Source of the DNA: Poseidonibacter antarcticus
GTDB taxonomy: Bacteria; Campylobacterota; Campylobacteria; Campylobacterales; Arcobacteraceae
Direction: 5' to 3'
NCBI RefSeq assembly: GCF_003667345.1
Contig: NZ_RCWF01000007.1
Location: 1 to 64,000, forward strand
DNA: 64,000 nucleotides
Position numbers and translations under genes: made by a program. This document shows positions 40,415 to 55,351 of the stretch, one piece after another. Each line of letters begins with the position of its first letter. The first letter of the stretch is position 1. The notes below the pieces were generated by a model. The model was not told the origin of the DNA and did not search any database. It saw only the letters and a list, made by a program, of their open reading frames with translations.

Positions 40415-41740
40415 ATGACGAAAATTAGTAAAAATTCTGAAAAGAGTTTAAAGTTAAATTCTTTAGAGCAATCTAGTAGAAGAAACTTTTTTAAAAAAAC
40501 AGCTATTTACTCAGCTAGTGCTTTAACTGCCGCAACAGTTTTAGCTCCAATTAAATTAAAAGCTGATGATGAGAATATTATACATCAGGTAGATTGGGGA
40601 ACTAAGCTTGGTGATAGAGTTGATAAAAACCCTTATGGTGTACCATCACTTTATGAACATAACAATGTAAGAAGAGTTCATGATTTATTATCATCAGGTG
40701 ATAGATATGCAACTGTATCAATGTCTCCATTACACCAACAAGAAGGAATTATTACACCAAATGGTTTATTCTTTACAAGAAATCATGGTGGAACAGCACA
40801 AATTGATCCTAATAAATATAGACTTATGATTCATGGTTTAGTTAAAAAACCAATTGTTTTAACATTAGAACAATTAAAAAGGTATCCATCAGAATCTAGA
40901 ATTCACTTTATTGAGTGTCCTGCAAATGGATCTACTGGATGGAGAGGACCTCAATTTAATAACTTGCAATTTGTTAAAGGTATGATGAGTTCAGCTGAAT
41001 GGACAGGAGTAAAACTTTCTGTTCTTTTAGAAGACTTAGGTCTTAAACCTGAAGCGCAATGGGCTTTAGTTGAAGGTAGTGATAACTCAGAAATGGGAAG
41101 AACTCTTCCAATTGAAAAAATCTTAGATGATGCAATGCTTGTTTGGGGACAAAATGGTGAACCATTACGACCAGAACAAGGTTATCCAGTTAGATTGTTA
41201 GTACCAGGTTGGGAAGGTAATTTAAATGTTAAATGGGTTAAAAGAATAGAATTTTCTGATAAACCATGGCATTCAAAAGAAGAAACATCTAAATATACAA
41301 TGTTGCAACCAAGTGGTAAAGCTATTAACTATTTCTGGCCAATGGAAGTAAATTCAATTATTACTTCACCATGTCCTGAAGTTCCTTGGACTGATTTGAA
41401 AAAAGGTGATATGGTAGAAATATCTGGAATTGCTTGGTCAGGTCGTGGTACTATTAAAACAGTTGATATTTCACTTGATGGTGGAAATAATTGGGTTGAA
41501 GCTCCTTTAAAAGGTTTAGTTTTACCTAAGTCATGGACTAGATTCTCATATATTATTAAATGGGATGGAAAGAAAAAAGTTCTATTATCAAGAGCAATTG
41601 ATGATTCAGGGCATATTCAACCTTCAATTGACAAATTAGTTGGAACAGTTGGAGTTGAGGGTATTTATCATAGAAATCCAATTGTAGGTTGGGAAGTAAC
41701 ATCAAAAGGAGTTGTAAATAATGTACATGTTAGATCTTAA
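40415..41740 (+). CDS. soxC: Sulfane dehydrogenase molybdenum subunit SoxC
   Basis: The molybdopterin subunit of Sox(CD)2, which oxidises sulfane sulfur bound to SoxY by six electrons. A Tat signal (SSRRNFFKKTAIYSASALTA, about 20-39) sends the folded protein to the periplasm. The sulfite-oxidase fold is shown by FTRNHGGTAQID, HFIECPANGSTGWRGP with the Mo-ligand Cys168, and the C-terminal dimer domain with ISGIAWSGRGTIKTVDIS. The length of 441 residues fits. It opens the sox cluster, with a very strong AAGGAGGGG ribosome site. Confidence 0.96.
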   Translation: MTKISKNSEKSLKLNSLEQSSRRNFFKKTAIYSASALTAATVLAPIKLKADDENIIHQVDWGTKLGDRVDKNPYGVPSLYEHNNVRRVHDLLSSGDRYATVSMSPLHQQEGIITPNGLFFTRNHGGTAQIDPNKYRLMIHGLVKKPIVLTLEQLKRYPSESRIHFIECPANGSTGWRGPQFNNLQFVKGMMSSAEWTGVKLSVLLEDLGLKPEAQWALVEGSDNSEMGRTLPIEKILDDAMLVWGQNGEPLRPEQGYPVRLLVPGWEGNLNVKWVKRIEFSDKPWHSKEETSKYTMLQPSGKAINYFWPMEVNSIITSPCPEVPWTDLKKGDMVEISGIAWSGRGTIKTVDISLDGGNNWVEAPLKGLVLPKSWTRFSYIIKWDGKKKVLLSRAIDDSGHIQPSIDKLVGTVGVEGIYHRNPIVGWEVTSKGVVNNVHVRS

Positions 41741-42788
41741 AAAATCATTATTAGCAGTTGGTGTTGTAACTTCACTTTTAGCAACTAATGCAGCTGCAGT
41801 TGAAAAAAATATTGATGGTGCAGTTATTTATCCTGTAAAAGATGGAAAATATACTGCTTATTCAGTAAATCAACAAAAGAAAGAAGGTTTTAGTTCATAC
41901 GGTAGAACTCCTACTAAAAATGAAATTAAAGCATGGGATACAGATGTAATGCCAGATGGGCATGGTTTACCTGTTGGTTCTGGTTCTGTTGAAGATGGAG
42001 ATGAATTATATGAAGCTCAATGTTCAATGTGTCATGGTGACTTTGGTGCTGGTGGAGTAGGTGGCTATCCTACATTATCAGGTGGACAAGGATCACTTAA
42101 AAATCAATTAGGATTAAATGGAACAGAAGCTCCAAGAAAAACTATTGGTTCTTATTGGCCTTATGCAAGTACACTTTTTTGGTACATTAAAACTGCAATG
42201 CCTTTCCCTCATCCAAAATCTTTAAGCGATGATGAAGTTTACGCAATTACAGCATACTTATTATCTGTAAATAGTATTAAAGTAGCAGGTGAAGAAATCG
42301 ATGATGAATTTGTTTTAAGTAATGAAAACTTCAAAGATATTAAAATGAATAATACTGATGGTTTCTATCCTGTAGATCCAAGTAGACATGATTTAAAAGA
42401 ACAAAGAGGTCCTTTAGCTCAAGGTACAAGATGTATGAAAGATTGTAATCAACCTAAACCTGTAAGTATCGCAGCTGAAATTGACGTTGGTTTTTATCCT
42501 GCAATTAGTACAAAAAAAGACTTGCCAAAAACCAAAGAAAATGCTACAGTATCAAAAGCTGCAAAAGTTTATGAAGCTAGTTGTAGTGCTTGTCATGCTA
42601 ATGCTGCAATAGGGGCTCCTGTTCTTGGTGATAAAGATGCTTGGGCTGCTGTTGTTGAAAAAGGTATAGATAAGGTTTATGCAAATGGAATTAATGGATT
42701 AAATGCAATGCCTGCTAAAGGTGCTACGGATTTATCCGATGAAGAATTCAAAGAAGTAGTTGATTATATGATTAACTCAAGCAAATAA
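41721..42788 (+). CDS. soxD: Sulfane dehydrogenase cytochrome c subunit SoxD
   Basis: A dihaem cytochrome c partner of SoxC that passes electrons on. It has an N-terminal signal peptide ending near TNAAA. The first haem site is CSMCH (about residues 101-105) and the second CSACH (about 287-291). Pro-Met segments (TAMPFPHP and NAMPAKG) can supply the axial ligands. Between the domains is RCMKDC, an additional Cys pair. The ORF overlaps the soxC end by 20 bases; AAGGAG inside soxC lies 8 bases from this ATG. The length of 355 residues is normal. Confidence 0.94.
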   Translation: MYMLDLKKSLLAVGVVTSLLATNAAAVEKNIDGAVIYPVKDGKYTAYSVNQQKKEGFSSYGRTPTKNEIKAWDTDVMPDGHGLPVGSGSVEDGDELYEAQCSMCHGDFGAGGVGGYPTLSGGQGSLKNQLGLNGTEAPRKTIGSYWPYASTLFWYIKTAMPFPHPKSLSDDEVYAITAYLLSVNSIKVAGEEIDDEFVLSNENFKDIKMNNTDGFYPVDPSRHDLKEQRGPLAQGTRCMKDCNQPKPVSIAAEIDVGFYPAISTKKDLPKTKENATVSKAAKVYEASCSACHANAAIGAPVLGDKDAWAAVVEKGIDKVYANGINGLNAMPAKGATDLSDEEFKEVVDYMINSSK

Positions 42789-42800
42789 AGGGGAGAACTA

Positions 42801-43151
42801 ATGAAATTAGTAAAAAGTTTACTATTAGCATCAGCTATTAGTGGTTTAATCACAACTAGCAGTTTCGCAAATGATGATTTAGTTAAAAAAGGTGAAAAAA
42901 TCTTTATGACTAAAAATTTAGGTAACTGTTTAGCATGTCATGCTGCAAATGGAAAGAATGTTGATGGACCTGGAAGTATGGGACCAAAATTACAAGCTTT
43001 AGAACATTGGCCTGATGAAGCACTATATCAAAAAATATATGACCCATATACTACTAACCCAATTTCAGCAATGCCAGCATTTGGTAAAAATGGTTGGTTA
43101 GATGATTCAGAAATAAAAGCAGTAGTTGCTTATTTAAAAACAATTAAATAA
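42801..43151 (+). CDS. soxX: SoxX, cytochrome c subunit of SoxAX
   Basis: Monohaem c-type cytochrome that pairs with SoxA to attach thiosulfate to SoxY. A signal peptide (1-23, ending SSFA) precedes the haem motif C43-L-A-C46-H47; M91 in SAMPAFGKNG is the likely axial ligand. The short length of 116 residues is typical. AGGGGAGAAC before the ATG is the ribosome site, 12 bases after soxD. Confidence 0.92.
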   Translation: MKLVKSLLLASAISGLITTSSFANDDLVKKGEKIFMTKNLGNCLACHAANGKNVDGPGSMGPKLQALEHWPDEALYQKIYDPYTTNPISAMPAFGKNGWLDDSEIKAVVAYLKTIK

Positions 43152-43171
43152 TTAATATAAAAGGAAATAAA

Positions 43172-43621
43172 ATGAACAGAAGAAATTTTTTAAGCTTAGG
43201 ATTAGGTGCATTGGCTGTTTCAATGCTACCATCAACTTTAAGTGCTATTAACTTTAGAGAATCAAAACCAGAAGCATGGACTACTACAAAAGTTGAAGAT
43301 TCAATTAAAGCAGTTTTTGGTGATCTTCCTAAAGGTGAAGGTAAAATTAAATTAAAAGCTCCAGATATTGCTGAAAATGGTGCAGTTATTCCTGTAACTA
43401 TTTCTACAAAATTAAATTCTAAAACTGTAGCAATTTTTCAAGATGCAAATCCTGAAAGTACTGTAGCTGTATTTAGTGTTCCTGAAAATGGAATTATTGA
43501 CTATTCTGTAAGAATTAAAATGGCTAAAACAGGTACTGTTACTGTTGTAGCAAATGTAGATGGGAAATTAATTTCTGCTTCTAAACTTGTAAAAGTAACT
43601 ATTGGTGGATGTGGAGGTTGA
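43172..43621 (+). CDS. soxY: SoxY, sulfur-carrier protein
   Basis: Carries the sulfur intermediate covalently on a C-terminal Cys at the end of a flexible GGCGG arm; here the last residues are VTIGGCGG. A Tat-type signal (NRRNFLSLGLGALAVS) exports it, probably together with SoxZ, which has no signal of its own. The length of 149 residues is standard. It is followed by soxZ after 65 bases, in the usual Y-Z order. Confidence 0.95.
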   Translation: MNRRNFLSLGLGALAVSMLPSTLSAINFRESKPEAWTTTKVEDSIKAVFGDLPKGEGKIKLKAPDIAENGAVIPVTISTKLNSKTVAIFQDANPESTVAVFSVPENGIIDYSVRIKMAKTGTVTVVANVDGKLISASKLVKVTIGGCGG

Positions 43622-43686
43622 TTTAAATCAATACCCATTTAGATATTAATAATAAATAATGAATAGAAAATAAAAGGAAATATATT

Positions 43687-43992
43687 ATGGCAAAAAAAAC
43701 AAGAATTAAAGCAAAATTAAAAAAAGATATTATTACTGTAAAAGCTATGGCTAATCACCCAATGTTAAGTTATATAGAAGCAAAAAATGCAAAAAAAGAA
43801 GCTAATTTTATTACTTATATGGTAGCAAAAGTTAATGACAAAATTGTTTATGAAGTATCAACAAGTCAGTTCTTATCAAAAAATCCATATATTAAATTTA
43901 AATTTAAAGGTGCAGCAAAAGGTGATTTAGTTGAAATCACTTGGACTGATTTAAAAGGTACAACACAAGTTAGTAGTGCAAAAATTAAATAA
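43687..43992 (+). CDS. soxZ: SoxZ, SoxY partner
   Basis: A 101-residue immunoglobulin-like partner of SoxY. Conserved features are RIKAKLKKDIITVKAMANHPM at the N-terminus and the C-terminal GDLVEITWTDLKGT. It has no signal peptide, agreeing with co-export with SoxY through Tat. AAAAGGAAATAT before ATG is the ribosome site. Confidence 0.94.
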   Translation: MAKKTRIKAKLKKDIITVKAMANHPMLSYIEAKNAKKEANFITYMVAKVNDKIVYEVSTSQFLSKNPYIKFKFKGAAKGDLVEITWTDLKGTTQVSSAKIK

Positions 43993-44023
43993 TTACATAA
44001 TAAACAATTAATAAGGAGAGCTT

Positions 44024-44938
44024 ATGTTATTGAAAATCGTAAAAGCTACAACTTTGGCTGCAATAGCTACTTGTGCATTAAATGCAAGTGACTTTAATGC
44101 TCAAGCAGAAAAAGATAGATTAGCTTTAATTAAATACTTTGAAGCAAAATTTGAAGACCCTGAAAAAAATAGAAATACATTCTTTCCATATTCAACAGAT
44201 GATGAATTAAAGAATTCTATTGCAAAAGGTGTTAAATTTGAAGAATTTTCAAAAGGTAATTATGCTTTTAATATTGATGGTAAATCTCAATATGAAGAAT
44301 TAAAAGAAATGCCACCTTATGAAGATGCAATTGATGAGGGTGAAGAATTATATACTAAAAAGTTTGCAAATGGTAAATCTTTTGCTTCTTGTTTCCCTAA
44401 TCCTGCAATTGGAGCTGATTATCCAATGTATGATGATAAAAAGAAAGAAATTATTACTTTAACTCAATCAATTAATACTTGTTTAACATCAAATGGTGAA
44501 AAACCTTGGAATACAAAAAAAGGTAACATGGCTAAATTACAAGCTTACTTTGCTTCAGCTACAACAGATGAAGAATTGAAAGTTAATGTTACTATTCCAA
44601 GTGCCGATGCAGCAGCTGCTTATGAAAGAGGAAAAGAATATTATTACTCACAAAGAGGTTATTTAAAACTTTCTTGTGCAACTTGTCATGTTCAAGGTGC
44701 AGGATTAAGAGTTAGAAATGAAAAGCTTTCTCAATTTGTAGGACAAACTACACACTTCCCTGTATTTAGATTAAAATGGGATGGATTAGGTACATTAGAG
44801 AGAAGAGTATCAGGTTGTATTAAAGATCAAGGTCAAGTTCCACCAAAAGATAATAGTAAAGAAATGAAAGAATTAATATATTTCTTATCTTATATGTCAA
44901 ATGGTTTAACTGTTGATGGTCCAGATATTAGAAAATAG
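44024..44938 (+). CDS. soxA: SoxA, catalytic cytochrome c subunit of SoxAX (single-haem form)
   Basis: Couples thiosulfate oxidatively to the SoxY Cys. A signal peptide covers about residues 1-20. Only one CxxCH is present (C218-A-T-C221-H222), and Cys265 in RRVSGCIKDQG is the expected haem-ligating persulfide Cys. In the N-terminal half the Cys residues in SFASCFPNP and SINTCLTSNG probably form a disulfide in place of the second haem of dihaem SoxA. AAGGAGAG upstream is the ribosome site. The length of 304 residues is normal. Confidence 0.94.
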   Translation: MLLKIVKATTLAAIATCALNASDFNAQAEKDRLALIKYFEAKFEDPEKNRNTFFPYSTDDELKNSIAKGVKFEEFSKGNYAFNIDGKSQYEELKEMPPYEDAIDEGEELYTKKFANGKSFASCFPNPAIGADYPMYDDKKKEIITLTQSINTCLTSNGEKPWNTKKGNMAKLQAYFASATTDEELKVNVTIPSADAAAAYERGKEYYYSQRGYLKLSCATCHVQGAGLRVRNEKLSQFVGQTTHFPVFRLKWDGLGTLERRVSGCIKDQGQVPPKDNSKEMKELIYFLSYMSNGLTVDGPDIRK

Positions 44939-44948
44939 GGAGTTGATT

Positions 44949-45371
44949 ATGAAAAAAATATATAAAGCTACGCTAGCTACACTCTTTTTATCTACATTTA
45001 TTGGGACTTCTTTAAGTGCTAATGATATTACTAAACTAGATGTAAAAAATGAGTGTAATGTTAAAGCAAATGGTATTAAAAAAGTATTAGCAACAGCTAG
45101 TAAGTATAATATTATTGCGAAAAAAGAAGGTGTTGAATTCAAAAGATTGGGTATGACTAATACACAATATATTGATGGAACAATGAAAGCAATAACAGAG
45201 GGTTCAAAAACTGTTGATATTGTTAATGCTAAAAATAAAAAAACTGGAGAGGTTTCTACTGAATATGCAGCATGGAGAGCTTGTTCATTTGCTATAAGTG
45301 CACTTCAACAAAAAGAAGAAGCCAAAACAACTTGGAAACTTGCAATGCCAGGTAATGGTTTTGAATATTAA
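44949..45371 (+). CDS. Uncharacterised secreted protein in the sox cluster
   Basis: A 140-residue protein with a clear signal peptide (MKKIYKATLATLFLSTFIGTSLSA). An upstream start at 44913 overlaps soxA and would spoil the signal peptide; AGGGAG lies 7-8 bases before 44949. The mature part begins NDITKLDVKNECNVKAN and ends in a Trp/Cys-containing helix (AAWRACSFAISALQQKEE) and NGFEY. It has two cysteines, no CxxCH, no CxxC. I do not recognise the family. Its place right after soxA suggests a periplasmic Sox accessory, perhaps like the SoxAX-binding protein SoxK, though it does not resemble that sequence. Confidence 0.8.
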   Translation: MKKIYKATLATLFLSTFIGTSLSANDITKLDVKNECNVKANGIKKVLATASKYNIIAKKEGVEFKRLGMTNTQYIDGTMKAITEGSKTVDIVNAKNKKTGEVSTEYAAWRACSFAISALQQKEEAKTTWKLAMPGNGFEY

Positions 45372-45450: not shown

Positions 45451-46101
45451 ATGAAATTATTAAATAAATTACTTATTGTAACAGCTTTTTCAGGTTTAGT
45501 TGCAAGTTCAGTTTTAGCAGAAGATTCATCAAATTATGTACCAATTTCAAAAGGTGTTAAGTCAATTGATATAAATTTAAACGATGAAAAATTTACTATT
45601 ATGAGAAATCAAACTCCTGGAAATAAAATATCTCCATTATATGATACAACTTTTAGAGGTGTTCCTCAACCGATTATTTTAGCAAAAGGTTTAGAAACTT
45701 TAGGAGAATTAGAGTTTATTGATTTAATGAAAAAAGCTCAAACAGATGAAAATATTGCAATTATTGATTCAAGAAAACCAGGTTGGTTTGATAGATTAAG
45801 AATCCCAGGTGCGATAAACGTTCCATTTACAAATTTTGAAGAAAAAGATACTGCTATTGAAATGATGGAAGATGAAATGGGTGTTGTTCAAAATGATGAC
45901 GGTACTTTAGATTTTTCTAATGCAAAGACTTTAGCGTTATATTGTAATGGTTATTGGTGTGGTCAAACTCCAGGAATGGTTAAAAATGCAAAATTTGCAT
46001 TATTAAAAATGGGATACCCAGTTGAAAAGATTAAATACTACAGAGGTGGTATGCAAGCTTGGACTTCATTAGGTTTTACAGTTGTAGGATCTGGAAAATA
46101 A
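45451..46101 (+). CDS. Periplasmic rhodanese-domain protein next to soxB
   Basis: A 216-residue secreted protein (signal peptide about 1-24, ending SSVLA). The rhodanese domain spans about 85-210: IAIIDSRKPGWFDRLRIPGAINVPF, then the active-site loop LYCNGYWCGQTPG, then YRGGMQAWTSLGF. The loop has a second Cys four residues after the first (C-N-G-Y-W-C), unusual for classical thiosulfate sulfurtransferases. The chosen ATG has AAAAGGAAATATA ahead of it; an earlier start (45415) lies in the terminator. A likely role is sulfane-sulfur transfer in thiosulfate oxidation. A paralogue lies at 54677. Confidence 0.88.
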   Translation: MKLLNKLLIVTAFSGLVASSVLAEDSSNYVPISKGVKSIDINLNDEKFTIMRNQTPGNKISPLYDTTFRGVPQPIILAKGLETLGELEFIDLMKKAQTDENIAIIDSRKPGWFDRLRIPGAINVPFTNFEEKDTAIEMMEDEMGVVQNDDGTLDFSNAKTLALYCNGYWCGQTPGMVKNAKFALLKMGYPVEKIKYYRGGMQAWTSLGFTVVGSGK

Positions 46102-46127: not shown

Positions 46128-47891
46128 ATGAGTAAATTAAGTAGAAGAGAATTTATATATATGATGTCAGTACTTGGTGCTGCTCCTGTATTTGCAAATT
46201 CTCACACAAGAATGACAGATACTAATAAACTAGAAGATTATTATAAATTAAAAAGCTTTGGTAATGTAAGACTTCTTCATATGACAGATTCTCATGCACA
46301 ATTAATGCCTGTATACTTTAGAGAACCAAGTGTAAACTTAGGACTTCATGGTAACTATGGTAAGCCACCTCATATTGTTGGTGAAAAACTATTAGATTAT
46401 TATGGTATTAAAGGTAATAAAAGATTAGAATATGCATATTCATGCGTAAACTTTGAAAAACATGCAAAAGTTATGGGGCGTGTTGGTGGATTCTCACAAC
46501 TTAAAACTGTAATTGATTTTTTAAGAAATAATTATGGAAAAGAAAAAACACTTATGTTAGACGGTGGAGATACATGGCAAGGAAGTGCAACAGCTCTTTA
46601 CACTCGTGGTAGAGATATGGTTGGTGCAATGAACTTACTAGGTGTTGATATTGCTGTTGGACATTGGGAGTTTACTTATAAAGCTGAAGAAATTTTAGCA
46701 AATGTAAAAGAACTTGATGCAGAATTTTTAGCACAAAATGTTTTTGTAAAAGAAGATGCATTAATGGATGGTGCAGAAGCTTATGATGAAGATTCAGGAT
46801 TAGCTTTTAAACCGTATACAATTAAAAAAATGGGAAATGCAAGAGTTGCAGTTATTGGTCAAGCTTTCCCTTATACAACTATTGCAAATCCTCAAAGATT
46901 TATTCCTGATTGGACTTTTGGGATTAAAGATGAAGAAATGCAAGAGTTAGTTGATACTATTAGAGATGAAGAAAAACCAGATGCTGTTATTGTTTTATCT
47001 CATAATGGTTTTGATGTTGATCAAAAAATGGCAGAAGTTTGTACTGGAATTGACTTTATTATGGGAGGTCATACTCACGATGGTGTTCCAGAAGCAGTTC
47101 CTGTTAAAAATGAAGAGGGAACTACTTATGTATGTAATGCTGGTTCAAATGGTAAGTTTTTAAATGTTCTTGATTTAGATATTCAAAATGGAAAAATCAA
47201 AGATTTTAAATTTACACTTCTTCCAATTTTCTCTGATTTAGTTCCTGAAGATAAAGAAATGAAAGCTTATATTGAAAAAGTGAGATTACCATTTATAAAA
47301 GATTTAAATAGAACTATTGCTACAACTGAAGAGACTCTATTTAGAAGAGGTAACTTTAATGGTTCATGGGATCAGATTATTTGTGATGCATTGATTGATG
47401 TAAAAGGTGCAGATATTTCACTTTCACCTGGATTTAGATGGGGTACAACTGTAATGCCTGGTCAAGATATTACATTTGATGATTTAATGACACAAACAGC
47501 TATGACTTATCCTGAAACGTATGCAAGAGATATTACAGGTCAAGGAATTAAAGATATTTTAGAAGATGTTGCAGATAACCTATTTAACGCTGATCCATTT
47601 TATCAACAAGGTGGAGATATGGTTAGAACTGGTGGTATTTCTTATAAAATTGATCCAAAAGCTAAGATGGGTAGCAGAATTTCTGATATTCAACTTACTA
47701 AAAATGGAAAAAAACTTCAAGCTAGTAAATCTTACAAGGTTGCTGGTTGGTCAACTGTTGGTTCTAAATCACCAGGTGAACCAGTTTGGGAAACAGTTGA
47801 AACTTATTTAGGAAATGTAAAACATATTGTAAATTTAAGAGTAGATACTCCTGATATTATTGGTGTTAAAAATAACCCAGGAATTATATAA
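46128..47891 (+). CDS. soxB: SoxB, thiosulfohydrolase
   Basis: Hydrolyses the terminal sulfonate from SoxY-thiocysteine S-sulfate as sulfate, using a dinuclear manganese centre. A Tat signal (LSRREFIYMMSVLGAA) exports it. The metallophosphatase-type motifs are intact: LLHMTDSHAQ, LDGGDTWQGS, GHWEF, SHNGFDVDQ and GGHTHDG. The C-terminal domain resembles 5'-nucleotidase (NFNGSWDQIICDAL). The length of 587 residues is typical. It follows the rhodanese gene after 26 bases, forming a two-gene unit. Confidence 0.96.
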   Translation: MSKLSRREFIYMMSVLGAAPVFANSHTRMTDTNKLEDYYKLKSFGNVRLLHMTDSHAQLMPVYFREPSVNLGLHGNYGKPPHIVGEKLLDYYGIKGNKRLEYAYSCVNFEKHAKVMGRVGGFSQLKTVIDFLRNNYGKEKTLMLDGGDTWQGSATALYTRGRDMVGAMNLLGVDIAVGHWEFTYKAEEILANVKELDAEFLAQNVFVKEDALMDGAEAYDEDSGLAFKPYTIKKMGNARVAVIGQAFPYTTIANPQRFIPDWTFGIKDEEMQELVDTIRDEEKPDAVIVLSHNGFDVDQKMAEVCTGIDFIMGGHTHDGVPEAVPVKNEEGTTYVCNAGSNGKFLNVLDLDIQNGKIKDFKFTLLPIFSDLVPEDKEMKAYIEKVRLPFIKDLNRTIATTEETLFRRGNFNGSWDQIICDALIDVKGADISLSPGFRWGTTVMPGQDITFDDLMTQTAMTYPETYARDITGQGIKDILEDVADNLFNADPFYQQGGDMVRTGGISYKIDPKAKMGSRISDIQLTKNGKKLQASKSYKVAGWSTVGSKSPGEPVWETVETYLGNVKHIVNLRVDTPDIIGVKNNPGII

Positions 47892-47906: not shown

Positions 47907-47950
47907 AAATCAAAAAGTATAAGGAATAAGTCTTTATACTTTTTTGATTT
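47907..47950 (+). terminator. Hairpin after soxB
   Basis: AAATCAAAAAGTATAA (47907-47922) pairs with the TTATACTTTTTTGATTT stretch (47934-47950), with one bulged T. The 3' arm itself is T-rich. It shares bases 47946-47950 with a second hairpin downstream, so the two cannot fully form together. Confidence 0.65.
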
Positions 47951-47992
47951 AATAAACAGTTTAATTTTATTATTTTAACTGTTTATTAAATC
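47946..47992 (+). promoter_or_regulatory. 16-bp perfect inverted repeat before the cytochrome-thioredoxin gene
   Basis: GATTTAATAAACAGTT (47946-47961) is perfectly complementary to AACTGTTTATTAAATC (47977-47992). It ends 5 bases before the GGAGG ribosome site of the next gene, so folding could affect translation. Its 5' arm overlaps the soxB terminator hairpin. Confidence 0.6.
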
Positions 47993-48010
47993 AAAATGGA
48001 GGAATATCTT

Positions 48011-48823
48011 TTGTTAATAAAAACTTTGTTATTAATATCCGTATTTTTTATTACATATTTAAGTGCAGATTTTAAAGAGGGTAAAAAAATATTTTTACAA
48101 AAATGTTCATCATGTCATAGTAAATATATTGATATGAAAATAATCAAAAAAAACTTTTTTGAAAATGAAAATAAAACTTTAAAGATGACTTCTCCAAGTG
48201 AAAATATGCTAGCTTATGCAATTATGGATAGTCCCAAACATTTAGGTGAAAAAGATGATCCTGAAATGCAACAAATTGAAATTGAAGAATTTTTAAAAGA
48301 TTATCTTGAAAATCCTGATCTTAATAATACTATTTGTGAAGGAAGAATAATTCAATATTATAATAAAAAACTTCCTAGTAATTATGATTTAAGCAGTGAA
48401 GATATATCAAATTTAGCAATTTATTTTATGAACTACAAAGAAGAAAGATTAAAAAACAATAGTACAAAAATAGAGTTAAAAGTTTTACCAAATAATTTTA
48501 ATGAGGAAAAACTATTAAAAGAAGCTAAGAAACAGCAAAAAAGAATACTTATTTATGCAACTGCTAAAACTTGTCATTTTTGTAAAAAGATGGACAAAGA
48601 AGTACTAAGTTTAAGTGATGTTAAAAATGAAATCAAAAAAGATTTTATTTTATTAAAAGTTGATATTGAAGATAGCTCTTTACCTTTTAATCTTGCAAAA
48701 AATTATAGAGGAATGACACCAACTTTTTTTGCAATTAACAATGATGGGAAACTTCAAAATAAATATCCAGGTTCTTGGAATAAAAAAGACTTTTTATTAA
48801 TATTAAAGGAAAATAGTAAATAA
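48011..48823 (+). CDS. Fusion of a c-type cytochrome domain and a thioredoxin-fold domain
   Basis: A 270-residue secreted protein. The TTG at 48011 is chosen because GGAGG lies 8 bases upstream and it gives a clean signal peptide (MLIKTLLLISVFFITYLSA); an ATG at 47996 overlaps that ribosome site. The haem motif is C32-S-S-C35-H36. A later KLPSNYDLS sits where cytochromes often have a Met-Pro axial ligand, so that ligand may be missing. The C-terminal part (about 165-270) has a thioredoxin-like fold with C188-H-F-C191 and a cis-Pro loop GMTPTFF. A role in sulfur or disulfide redox in the periplasm is inferred from the domains and the sox location. Confidence 0.82.
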   Translation: MLIKTLLLISVFFITYLSADFKEGKKIFLQKCSSCHSKYIDMKIIKKNFFENENKTLKMTSPSENMLAYAIMDSPKHLGEKDDPEMQQIEIEEFLKDYLENPDLNNTICEGRIIQYYNKKLPSNYDLSSEDISNLAIYFMNYKEERLKNNSTKIELKVLPNNFNEEKLLKEAKKQQKRILIYATAKTCHFCKKMDKEVLSLSDVKNEIKKDFILLKVDIEDSSLPFNLAKNYRGMTPTFFAINNDGKLQNKYPGSWNKKDFLLILKENSK

Positions 48824-49276
48824 ATGAAAAACATTGGTAAAGTAATTGAAATATTTAGTGCAGATAAAAACTCTTCAGGATTTCCTAGACCAATAGTAGA
48901 GCAACTTGATATTATAAAAGATTATGGTATTAAACACGATAAATTTGCTGGTAAAAATCAAGATAAAACAGTAATGATTGTTGGTTTAAAAGCTTATACA
49001 ATTGCAGAAGAAAATGGTATAAATTTAGATTATGGTAGTTTTGGTGAAAATATTTTATTTGACTTTGATCCACATAAATATAAAGTTGGTTCAACTTTTC
49101 TAATTAATGATGTTAAGTTAGAAATTACACAAAATTGTACTATTTGTAATCACTTAGGTGTTTTCTCACCAGACTTACCTTCATTAGTAAGAGAACATAG
49201 AGGTTTATATTGTAGAATAATAAGCAGTGGTATAATCACTAAAGAAAATATAGTTTATATAAAGGAAGAAATATAA
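48824..49276 (+). CDS. MOSC-domain protein
   Basis: A 150-residue stand-alone MOSC domain, a fold shared with the C-termini of molybdenum-cofactor sulfurases and mARC/YiiM proteins. Family features are KHDKFAGKNQDKTVMIVG, YGSFGENIL and a Cys region (ITQNCTICNHLG) in place of the conserved MOSC Cys. No signal peptide is visible, so it is likely cytoplasmic. Its ATG directly follows the previous stop, and its own stop overlaps the next start (A of TAATG). A role in handling sulfur or Mo cofactor for SoxC is possible but unproven. Confidence 0.85.
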   Translation: MKNIGKVIEIFSADKNSSGFPRPIVEQLDIIKDYGIKHDKFAGKNQDKTVMIVGLKAYTIAEENGINLDYGSFGENILFDFDPHKYKVGSTFLINDVKLEITQNCTICNHLGVFSPDLPSLVREHRGLYCRIISSGIITKENIVYIKEEI

Positions 49277-49713
49277 TGAAGAAAATATTATTAGTTTTAT
49301 TTTTTACTGTTTTTGTTTATGGTGAGTCAACATTTAGTAATCCCCAGCCTTCATTTGAAAATCCAAGGAAAGTTGTTTTTCAAATGTATGATTCAAATCT
49401 TGAAAAAGTAAATCATAATTTAGGAACAATTTATAATATTTTAAAAGAATATCCTGAAGAATCTTTAAAAATTTCAGTTGTTGCTTATGGTAATGGAATG
49501 AGAGCTTTAAGAAAAGATTATGATAAAAATACACTTGCTAGAATAAGTTCACTTATGGAATATGATGTTGAGTTTTTTGCATGTAAAAATACTATGGAAA
49601 GTATGAATTGGACAAAAGATGAATTTATTGATGATTTAATTTATGTTCAAGCTGGAATTGTTGAATTTATTGAAAAACAAGTTGATGGATATGTTGGAGT
49701 TAATGCATATTAA
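49276..49713 (+). CDS. Secreted DsrE-like protein
   Basis: A 145-residue protein with a short signal peptide (MKKILLVLFFTVFVYG). The mature part resembles the DsrE/DsrF/TusD-type fold: KVVFQMYDSN, VVAYGNGMRAL, the conserved Cys in FFACKNTMESMNW, and QAGIVEFIEKQVDGYVGVNAY at the end. Cytoplasmic relatives carry persulfide sulfur on that Cys; this one is exported, as are several sulfur-oxidiser homologues. A sulfur carrier role with the neighbouring redox protein is inferred. The start overlaps the MOSC stop by one base. Confidence 0.85.
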   Translation: MKKILLVLFFTVFVYGESTFSNPQPSFENPRKVVFQMYDSNLEKVNHNLGTIYNILKEYPEESLKISVVAYGNGMRALRKDYDKNTLARISSLMEYDVEFFACKNTMESMNWTKDEFIDDLIYVQAGIVEFIEKQVDGYVGVNAY

Positions 49714-49735
49714 TTTTATTTAAAAAGGTTAAAAA

Positions 49736-50518
49736 ATGTTAAAAAAAGTTTTATTTTTATTATTAGTCGCTTTTATATCTTTTTCATTTGCAAAACAGAT
49801 TAATCAATCTTTATGCGATGAAAAAGGAGATGGTTTTATTTATGCTGGGAATGAGTGTATAAATTACTCAATGTTTGAAGGTGATGATAATGATAGATTA
49901 ATCATAATCGTTCCTGGAACATGGGATGAAGGAAGTAATGTTCTTGGAAGATATACTCCTTTTGCTGAAAATATAAATATGACAACAGATGTTAGTACAA
50001 TAGCTATTGCACTTCCTGGGTATTCAAAATCTTCACTTAATCATTTAAAATCAATTGGTAGTAAAGAGTATAATCATCAAGCAGCTACAAAAGAGTATGT
50101 AGAATTTTTAGAAAAACTAGTAATTGCCCTAAAAGATAAATATAAAAGTAAAGAAATCACAATTATAGGACATTCAGCTGGTGCTATGATGAGTGCATCA
50201 TTAGCTGGTTTAAATAATAAGCTTTTAAAAAATGTAGTATTAGTAGCAGGTAGATATGAAAGACCTGATTATGCAAATGAAAAACATCTTTTAGCTATTG
50301 ATGTATTAGATAAGATGAATAAAAATACAAAGTTTATTATGATTTATGGTACTGAAGATAAAATCTCAAAACCTAGTGTTACAAAAGACTTCTATAAAAA
50401 AATGAAAAAACAAGGATTAGATGTAGAACTTGTTGAGGTAAAAGATGCTGGACATATTGATTTAGATATGACAGATAGAAGTGTAGAAGCAATTAGTTCA
50501 TTATTTGAAGAAGAATAA
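49736..50518 (+). CDS. Secreted alpha/beta hydrolase
   Basis: A 260-residue protein with a signal peptide (MLKKVLFLLLVAFISFSFA). The hydrolase fold shows the oxyanion region IIIVPGTWDEGSN, the nucleophile elbow GHSAGA (Ser near residue 145), a later acid region IYGTEDKISKP, and the catalytic His in DAGHIDLD. Two Cys (SLCDE and NECINY) lie just after the signal peptide and may form a disulfide. The substrate is unknown. It belongs to the sox-downstream run with tight spacing and ends where the next gene begins. Confidence 0.85.
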   Translation: MLKKVLFLLLVAFISFSFAKQINQSLCDEKGDGFIYAGNECINYSMFEGDDNDRLIIIVPGTWDEGSNVLGRYTPFAENINMTTDVSTIAIALPGYSKSSLNHLKSIGSKEYNHQAATKEYVEFLEKLVIALKDKYKSKEITIIGHSAGAMMSASLAGLNNKLLKNVVLVAGRYERPDYANEKHLLAIDVLDKMNKNTKFIMIYGTEDKISKPSVTKDFYKKMKKQGLDVELVEVKDAGHIDLDMTDRSVEAISSLFEEE

Positions 50519-54663: not shown

Positions 54664-54678
54664 GAAGCTTTCTTTTTT
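54652..54678. terminator. Terminator built into the end of the chemoreceptor gene
   Basis: GAAAGCTTC (54652-54660) pairs with GAAGCTTTC (54664-54672) with the stop codon TAA as the loop, followed by six T. The 5' arm encodes the last residues (ESF). It ends right beside the end of the convergent rhodanese gene (54677). Confidence 0.85.
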
Positions 54679-55351
54679 AATTTGGTTTAATTGTCGGGAA
54701 ACCTAAACTTAACCATGATTGAATTCCACCTCTATACCATTTAAGTTTTTCTTCTGGATATCCAATAGCAATTAAGTTTTTCATAGATAGAGGTGATTGT
54801 CCACACCAAACTCCATTACAAAATAGTAATAATTCTTTTGCATTCGTAAAATCATAACCGTCATCTGTAATTTCAACACCTAATATATCCATCGCATCAA
54901 CAAAATCATCAGGATATTGAGCCTTATTCAAGTGAATAAATGGAACATTAACAGCACTAGGTATTGTTTGATTTAAATACCAATTTACAGTTCGTGAGTC
55001 AACTAAAAGCATATTTTCATTATCATTTGCTTTGTCAATAAAATCTAAAACTTCAATTTCACCATAAGTTTCAACCTTAGGAGAATATTTTATTGGAGAA
55101 ACTTTTCCTAAATAAGTAATAAAACTTTTTTTACAATCTTGGGGAACTTTTTCATCTACTAAATTCCCACCTAAAATAGTGCTAGGATTAAATTTAACAC
55201 CTTTACAATTATCTGGTTTCTCTCTTTTTATTGTGATGCTCTTTATTTCATCATTAGAATCTGTATATGAAACATCCACACCAATTGTCTCTAAGGAAGA
55301 AGCACTTAAAAAACTACTTACTAGTATACTTGATATTATTAACTTTTTCAT
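54677..55351 (-). CDS. Secreted rhodanese-domain protein, paralogue of the sox one
   Basis: A 224-residue secreted protein (signal MKKLIISSILVSSFLSASS) with an N-terminal extension containing two Cys (PDNCKG, QDCKK). The rhodanese domain shows LLVDSRTVNWYLNQTIPSAVNVPF (two blocks), active-site loop LLFCNGVWCGQSP, and YRGGIQSWLSLGF. The C-N-G-x-W-C-G-Q loop matches the 45451 protein, so the two share an origin. It lies convergent to the chemoreceptor, on its own transcript. Sulfane-sulfur handling in the periplasm is likely; the exact reaction is unknown. Confidence 0.87.
   Translation of the reverse strand: MKKLIISSILVSSFLSASSLETIGVDVSYTDSNDEIKSITIKREKPDNCKGVKFNPSTILGGNLVDEKVPQDCKKSFITYLGKVSPIKYSPKVETYGEIEVLDFIDKANDNENMLLVDSRTVNWYLNQTIPSAVNVPFIHLNKAQYPDDFVDAMDILGVEITDDGYDFTNAKELLLFCNGVWCGQSPLSMKNLIAIGYPEEKLKWYRGGIQSWLSLGFPTIKPN

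Follow-up and report, generated by a model that had tools for sequence, protein, structure and literature searches.

Two candidate partner sets of thiosulfate oxidation encoded 3' of soxB in Arcobacteraceae: a MOSC protein that follows SoxC and a DsrE/thioredoxin pair that follows SoxB

Introduction

The closest described counterparts of the thioredoxin considered here are SoxW and SoxS of Rhodovulum and Paracoccus, with which it has in common an exported thioredoxin fold, a CxxC motif and a gene located among the sox genes; in Paracoccus, incorrect disulfides are reduced by SoxS, which keeps SoxYZ from being inactivated (PMC10451225). In Sulfurovum indicum, dsrE, soxW and soxH1 adjoin soxABXY1Z1 and are upregulated 2.17-3.83-fold on thiosulfate (PMC10045233), and no soxV was reported in A. 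butzleri (PMC2147049). The placement of DsrE and SoxW beside sox genes is therefore partly known already, in a report that covers one genome and contains no MOSC, no survey and no mechanism (PMC10045233).

Two further groups bear on the MOSC protein. YiiM has an invariant MOSC cysteine at the proposed molybdenum cofactor (Moco) site (PMC5818509), and in ABA3 Moco is bound 1:1 by the MOSC domain (PMC2997495). The chaperones TorD/DmsD/NarJ, NapD and XdhC are cytoplasmic partners encoded with a molybdoenzyme, several of these enzymes being exported folded by Tat; for yedYZ, of the sulfite oxidase family, a specific chaperone gene was not found nearby (PMC4228395). Our literature search on SoxCD cofactor insertion gave no work naming SoxCD among the papers listed, and in the literature searched we met no specific cofactor-insertion partner for SoxC; nor did we find there a report linking MOSC to SoxC, or biochemistry for any of the four proteins described below.

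Results

The sox cluster and the four genes that follow soxB

We analysed a 64,000-nucleotide stretch of the Poseidonibacter antarcticus genome (contig NZ_RCWF01000007.1, positions 1 to 64,000; hereafter the window), whose sox genes stand in the Arcobacteraceae-type order soxC-soxD-soxX-soxY-soxZ-soxA, small exported protein, exported rhodanese and soxB, followed by four further genes. The molybdopterin sulfane dehydrogenase subunit gene soxC (40415..41740, forward strand) matched TIGR04555 at 607 bits as well as Pfam Oxidored_molyb and Mo-co_dimer, and a Tat motif, SRRNFFKK, can be read off its product. Directly 3' of it, where relatives also have a similar gene, lies the cytochrome c subunit gene soxD (41721..42788, forward; two CxxCH motifs), and then soxX, soxY, soxZ and soxA (42801..44938, forward) in an order kept in relatives, with SoxX matching TIGR04485 and SoxY ending in GGCGG. 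The thiosulfohydrolase gene soxB (46128..47891, forward) scored 837 bits against TIGR04486 (cut-off 550). Between soxA and soxB, the small exported protein (44952-45371) has two cysteines, no Pfam match above cut-off and a position like that of SoxK, and the exported rhodanese (45451-46101) has a position like that of SoxL; a second exported rhodanese, encoded on the reverse strand (54677-55351) at a place conserved in several relatives, is a paralogue of the first, and the motif CNGxWCGQ is common to both.

The four genes 3' of soxB encode an exported fusion of an N-terminal cytochrome c domain (CSSCH) with a C-terminal SoxW-like thioredoxin domain (CHFC; 48011..48823), a cytoplasmic MOSC protein (48824..49276), an exported DsrE-family protein (49276..49713) and an exported alpha/beta hydrolase (49736..50518), all on the forward strand. 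An initial annotation, made from the letters alone, had named these families in this order and had counted three signal peptides; both points held (Pfam Thioredoxin_2, MOSC, DsrE and alpha/beta hydrolase), the signal peptides being on the first, third and fourth products and none on MOSC. The arrangement is not unique to this genome: the four-gene set follows soxB in nearly all examined Arcobacteraceae loci, and the order soxB-(cytochrome-)thioredoxin-MOSC-DsrE is conserved in most Arcobacteraceae (loci from genome collections). In Sulfurovum-type loci thioredoxin and DsrE likewise lie 3' of soxB, without MOSC, and several have a porin and a SoxH-like metallo-hydrolase between. As separate observations, a DUF302 protein lies directly 3' of DsrE in Sulfurovum-type loci (L041:11256-12191, L095:2644-3585 and L044:5599-6588; DUF302 match in the first two), and YeeE-type Sulf_transp genes come next in L044.

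The same annotation had the set lying directly after soxB in one operon. Spacing within the set is indeed tight (intergenic gaps of 0, -1 and 22 bp), but 119 bp with two strong hairpins separate it from soxB, so that co-transcription with soxB should not be taken for granted. These conserved hairpins (47912..47994, forward) comprise a terminator-like element, AAAAAGUAUAAGG...CUUUAUACUUUUUU, and then a long AT-rich palindrome that ends at the ribosome-binding site. The folding energy was -30.7 kcal/mol (z -6.9), and an alignment of seven sequences (related loci of the genus) contained 31 pairs, 7 of them with changes on both sides; the compensatory changes fall in the second hairpin. Rfam gave no credible match for the hairpins, and promoter and terminator scans were not above shuffles. 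The genes downstream may be transcribed at a level different from that of soxB.

The exported thioredoxin, DsrE and hydrolase

The fusion gene has a TTG start with a good ribosome-binding site upstream, and a signal peptide can be read off its product. It matched Pfam Thioredoxin_2 (1e-11), and a sub-threshold cytochrome c match spanned the haem motif only; its structural model (m04ca6b8b24ee) matched thioredoxins and DsbD-gamma, and because thioredoxins dominated the fold matches the N-terminal cytochrome domain was not matched separately. Both cysteines of the thioredoxin CxxC are invariant (21 sequences), and the protein combines the thioredoxin fold with CxxC, the export signal and the sox-cluster location of the SoxW/SoxS type. 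It differs from SoxW and SoxS in having DsrE as a partner and, in many cases, a cytochrome c at its N-terminus, and where those systems have soxV this genome has a full-length DsbD, its only DsbD_TM match.

CxxCH stands near the N-terminus in 15/15 fused sequences, as in class I cytochromes c; the axial Met that these have before the C-terminal helix is absent from the window sequence, the motif TMPSM being kept in Sulfurovum-type sequences and replaced in Arcobacteraceae, the window included. The domain is also variable, with a thioredoxin-only orthologue at the same place in several genomes. Its role in electron transfer is less certain because Arcobacteraceae have no conserved axial Met and several species lack the domain. 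A cysteine of the cytochrome domain (SIC/TIC), kept in 14/15 fused sequences, could be a haem ligand. In one genome a cytochrome-thioredoxin doublet with DsrE forms three identical-scoring tandem copies at 3.9 kb spacing (G168:C1:1764679-1774470). Some cytochrome-thioredoxin matches contain an in-frame TGA (G018, G139, G227), and selenocysteine was considered and rejected; the G018 match overruns the last codon of its orthologue across an ordinary stop.

The DsrE-family protein (Pfam 2.8e-9; signal peptide) has the domain and single conserved cysteine of its family, Cys103 being invariant in 20 orthologues, and its relatives of known structure are MTH1491 and ST0148. By gene context, DsrE and thioredoxin are the same partners as in the dsrE-soxW-soxH1 group of Sulfurovum indicum. 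An alphaproteobacterial plasmid also encodes a related exported DsrE, close to soxB, soxC and a SoxV-like protein, so the partnership may extend beyond the phylum. The hydrolase (Pfam 2e-11; signal peptide; two invariant cysteines) was present in 16/17 SoxB-positive vs. 0/5 SoxB-negative Arcobacteraceae genomes; it is nearly confined to this family (one genome outside it) and, in our sample, occurred only in sox-bearing genomes. At its residue 60, in the stretch expected to hold the oxyanion site, the window has Pro (IIVPGTW) and nearly all orthologues have His (IIVHGTW).

Co-occurrence separates MOSC from DsrE

A single set of 238 genomes from the order, all with a completeness of 80% or above, was scored with profiles for SoxB (TIGR04486), SoxC (TIGR04555), DsrE (A2) and MOSC (A3). 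SoxB was called above cut-off, with three split or contig-cut genes added; DsrE at 126 bits or more, with one contig-edge fragment added (next match 87 bits); and MOSC at 107 bits or more (next match 64 bits). Thioredoxins being so widespread, profile scoring of the pair was limited to DsrE, and the link of the thioredoxin to SoxB comes from its position beside DsrE and soxB. Fisher p values are not to be read literally, the genomes being related by descent.

DsrE was found in 75/78 SoxB genomes vs. 1/160 others, and so occurs almost only with soxB rather than mainly apart from sox genes; MOSC was found in 68/69 SoxC genomes vs. 1/169 others, the one-to-one pattern of a system-specific molybdoenzyme chaperone. 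Genomes with both anchors had nearly always both partners (DsrE 53/55, MOSC 54/55), those with SoxB only had DsrE without MOSC (22/23 and 0/23), those with SoxC only, SoxB being undetected, had MOSC nearly always without DsrE (14/14 and 1/14), and those with neither had no DsrE (0/146) and a single MOSC pseudogene (1/146; G116). Genomes that lack SoxC and have lower-scoring proteins of the sulfite oxidase family (about 150-204 bits) were without this MOSC. SoxC and SoxD occur together, and co-occurrence separates neither SoxC from SoxD nor SoxB from SoxXA.

Within mixed genera, which contain genomes with and without the anchor, two genomes were discordant for SoxC/MOSC (13 genera) and two for SoxB/DsrE (15 genera). 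For the first pair, the MOSC end lies at a contig edge in G179, and G116 lacks SoxC and has a MOSC with stop codons; for the second, the soxB contig of G208 stops inside the next gene, and a short contig of G159 starts just 5' of porin, cytochrome-thioredoxin and DsrE. G179, G208 and G159 look like assembly gaps. SoxB without a called DsrE was seen in G043 and G162, the latter only 82% complete. In SoxC-less G091 a broken MOSC without its C-terminal half stands at the place of the intact MOSC of its congeners G062 and G103, which fits decay after SoxC loss. Decayed MOSC genes lie at L093:2842-3077 and L088:521-886, in a pair of genomes that belong to a single genus and lack SoxC.

These counts bear on two broader explanations. 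The initial annotation had proposed that all four genes form one periplasmic sulfur-relay or SoxY-repair module, which would make MOSC a sulfur carrier. Gene order is tight in Arcobacteraceae and sulfur carriers occur in both the MOSC and DsrE families; however, MOSC has no signal peptide, is absent from 23/23 SoxB-positive SoxC-negative genomes and is present, usually next to soxC, in 14/14 SoxC-positive genomes in which SoxB went undetected, and a single module that includes it is very unlikely. For the thioredoxin and DsrE, a pair to which MOSC does not belong, a role in SoxY relay or repair is still plausible: comparison with soxCD divides the proposed module, MOSC following SoxC and DsrE following SoxB. 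Of the combination that the annotation did not know as a described system, dsrE-soxW beside sox has been published (PMC10045233). That the genes co-occur without functional meaning, merely because a single block was inherited or transferred, is exceedingly improbable: the genes do often adjoin, but both partners are retained even when relocated away from sox, they are lost together in many genera, and DsrE is common to two separate sox lineages with identities of only about 26-41% between their SoxX, SoxY and SoxA proteins.

The MOSC protein and its place in the genome

The MOSC protein (Pfam 1.5e-8) combines the domain with the absolutely conserved cysteine of its family, Cys108 (CTIC), which is invariant in 46/46 sequences. 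Its structural model (ma67f5ae0f852; modest confidence, pLDDT 69) matched YuaD and YiiM, its NCBIfam match is a MoaC-MOSC protein, and a PDB sequence search gave no relative. The MOSC fold and an invariant cofactor-site cysteine are thus common to it and to YiiM, YuaD, mARC and MoaC-MOSC/ABA3, from which it differs in being a short single domain (150 aa), in having its presence locked to SoxC and in having no known electron-transfer partner. Like TorD/DmsD/NarJ, NapD and XdhC it is a cytoplasmic protein encoded with a molybdoenzyme, but its fold is unrelated to theirs.

Where soxC lies inside the same cluster MOSC adjoins soxB, and at separate soxCDYZ loci it usually lies 0.2-4 kb from soxC, divergent from or downstream of soxCDYZ; in some genomes it has been relocated away from sox yet retained. 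In four soxCDYZ loci (L074, L078, L079 and L082) a thioredoxin, and usually also a SoxH-like metallo-hydrolase, adjoins MOSC. Alphaproteobacterial plasmids with sox genes had no MOSC relative at E 0.001, and the gene could be chromosomal there; unless it is, some organisms may mature SoxC without MOSC. The only plasmid MOSC was in Cetobacterium, directly 3' of moaA.

Discussion

Presence, families, location signals, conservation, co-occurrence and synteny are what we observed, and from them we infer every biochemical step below. On balance we favour the interpretation that the genes 3' of soxB represent two separate partner sets of thiosulfate oxidation, with the roles proposed here: a periplasmic thioredoxin/DsrE set on the SoxB side and a cytoplasmic MOSC on the SoxC side, which stand side by side because soxCD and soxXYZAB form one cluster in Arcobacteraceae. 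More tentatively, and with somewhat less confidence than we would need to prefer it outright, MOSC would be dedicated to SoxC, carrying or inserting its cofactor, and DsrE with the cytochrome-thioredoxin fusion a general SoxXAB-side unit of sulfane-sulfur handling in Campylobacterota.

DsrE follows SoxB with or without SoxC, which places its role in the thiosulfate-binding and sulfate-release half of the pathway (SoxXA, SoxB, SoxYZ) and not with SoxCD. The SoxW-like thioredoxin and the single-cysteine DsrE may act as a pair on SoxYZ in the periplasm, so that its cysteines neither stay in disulfides nor hold surplus sulfane sulfur. Cys103 of DsrE would take sulfane sulfur, or an unwanted persulfide or polysulfide, from SoxY; the thioredoxin would reduce the DsrE persulfide and SoxY disulfides; the DsbD of the genome would supply the electrons that recharge the thioredoxin; and SoxY would thereby stay competent for SoxXA and SoxB. 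In the many species that have it, the fused cytochrome c may link the dithiol to the pool of periplasmic cytochromes by electron transfer. Sulfur uptake by DsrE and reduction by thioredoxin fit the observations, the direction of sulfur flow given here being a candidate. DsrE might instead be a sulfur donor or an export step, bringing polysulfide to SoxY or SoxY sulfur to a transporter: sulfur transfer is known for DsrE-family proteins, YeeE-type Sulf_transp genes lie nearby in L044, and delivery from SoxYZ via SoxS to SoxT has been proposed in Hyphomicrobium (PMC11582611). We consider this rather doubtful, since DsrE is equally frequent with and without SoxC (53/55 and 22/23) and hence not specific to genomes that would store or export sulfane sulfur.

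The Tat pathway exports folded proteins, so SoxC would receive its cofactor in the cytoplasm, the compartment of MOSC. MOSC may bind the molybdenum cofactor via Cys108 and hand it to apo-SoxC, or protect it there, before folded SoxC exits by Tat, and the simplest way to read MOSC is as a protein that carries the cofactor to SoxC or inserts it. It is unlikely that MOSC is instead a YiiM/mARC-type molybdenum-cofactor enzyme which detoxifies a by-product of sulfane oxidation. Characterised MOSC proteins do bind the cofactor and reduce N-hydroxylated compounds (PMC5818509), and the structural model points to YiiM and YuaD; however, this is a short version that follows a single molybdoenzyme, detoxification of a by-product would be expected rather to go with the use of thiosulfate and so with SoxB, and NCBIfam matched it with a MoaC-MOSC protein. 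Because SoxC and SoxD are inseparable by co-occurrence, MOSC might also act on SoxD or the SoxCD complex, or sense sulfur or regulate soxCD from the cytoplasm; we detected no DNA-binding domain in it, and MOSC biochemistry indicates a role with molybdenum cofactor, which makes this quite improbable.

If the cofactor-carrier reading of MOSC is correct, MOSC would be, as far as our literature search showed, the first such partner for a member of the sulfite oxidase family that is exported by Tat. SoxCD decides whether the sulfur of thiosulfate is fully oxidised to sulfate. The match of MOSC to SoxC in 68/69 genomes gives a direct lead to the cofactor-insertion step of SoxC, and the locking of DsrE and thioredoxin to SoxB suggests that a step of thiol handling on SoxYZ is missing from the present picture of these sulfur oxidisers, which are common in vents, sediments and coastal water.
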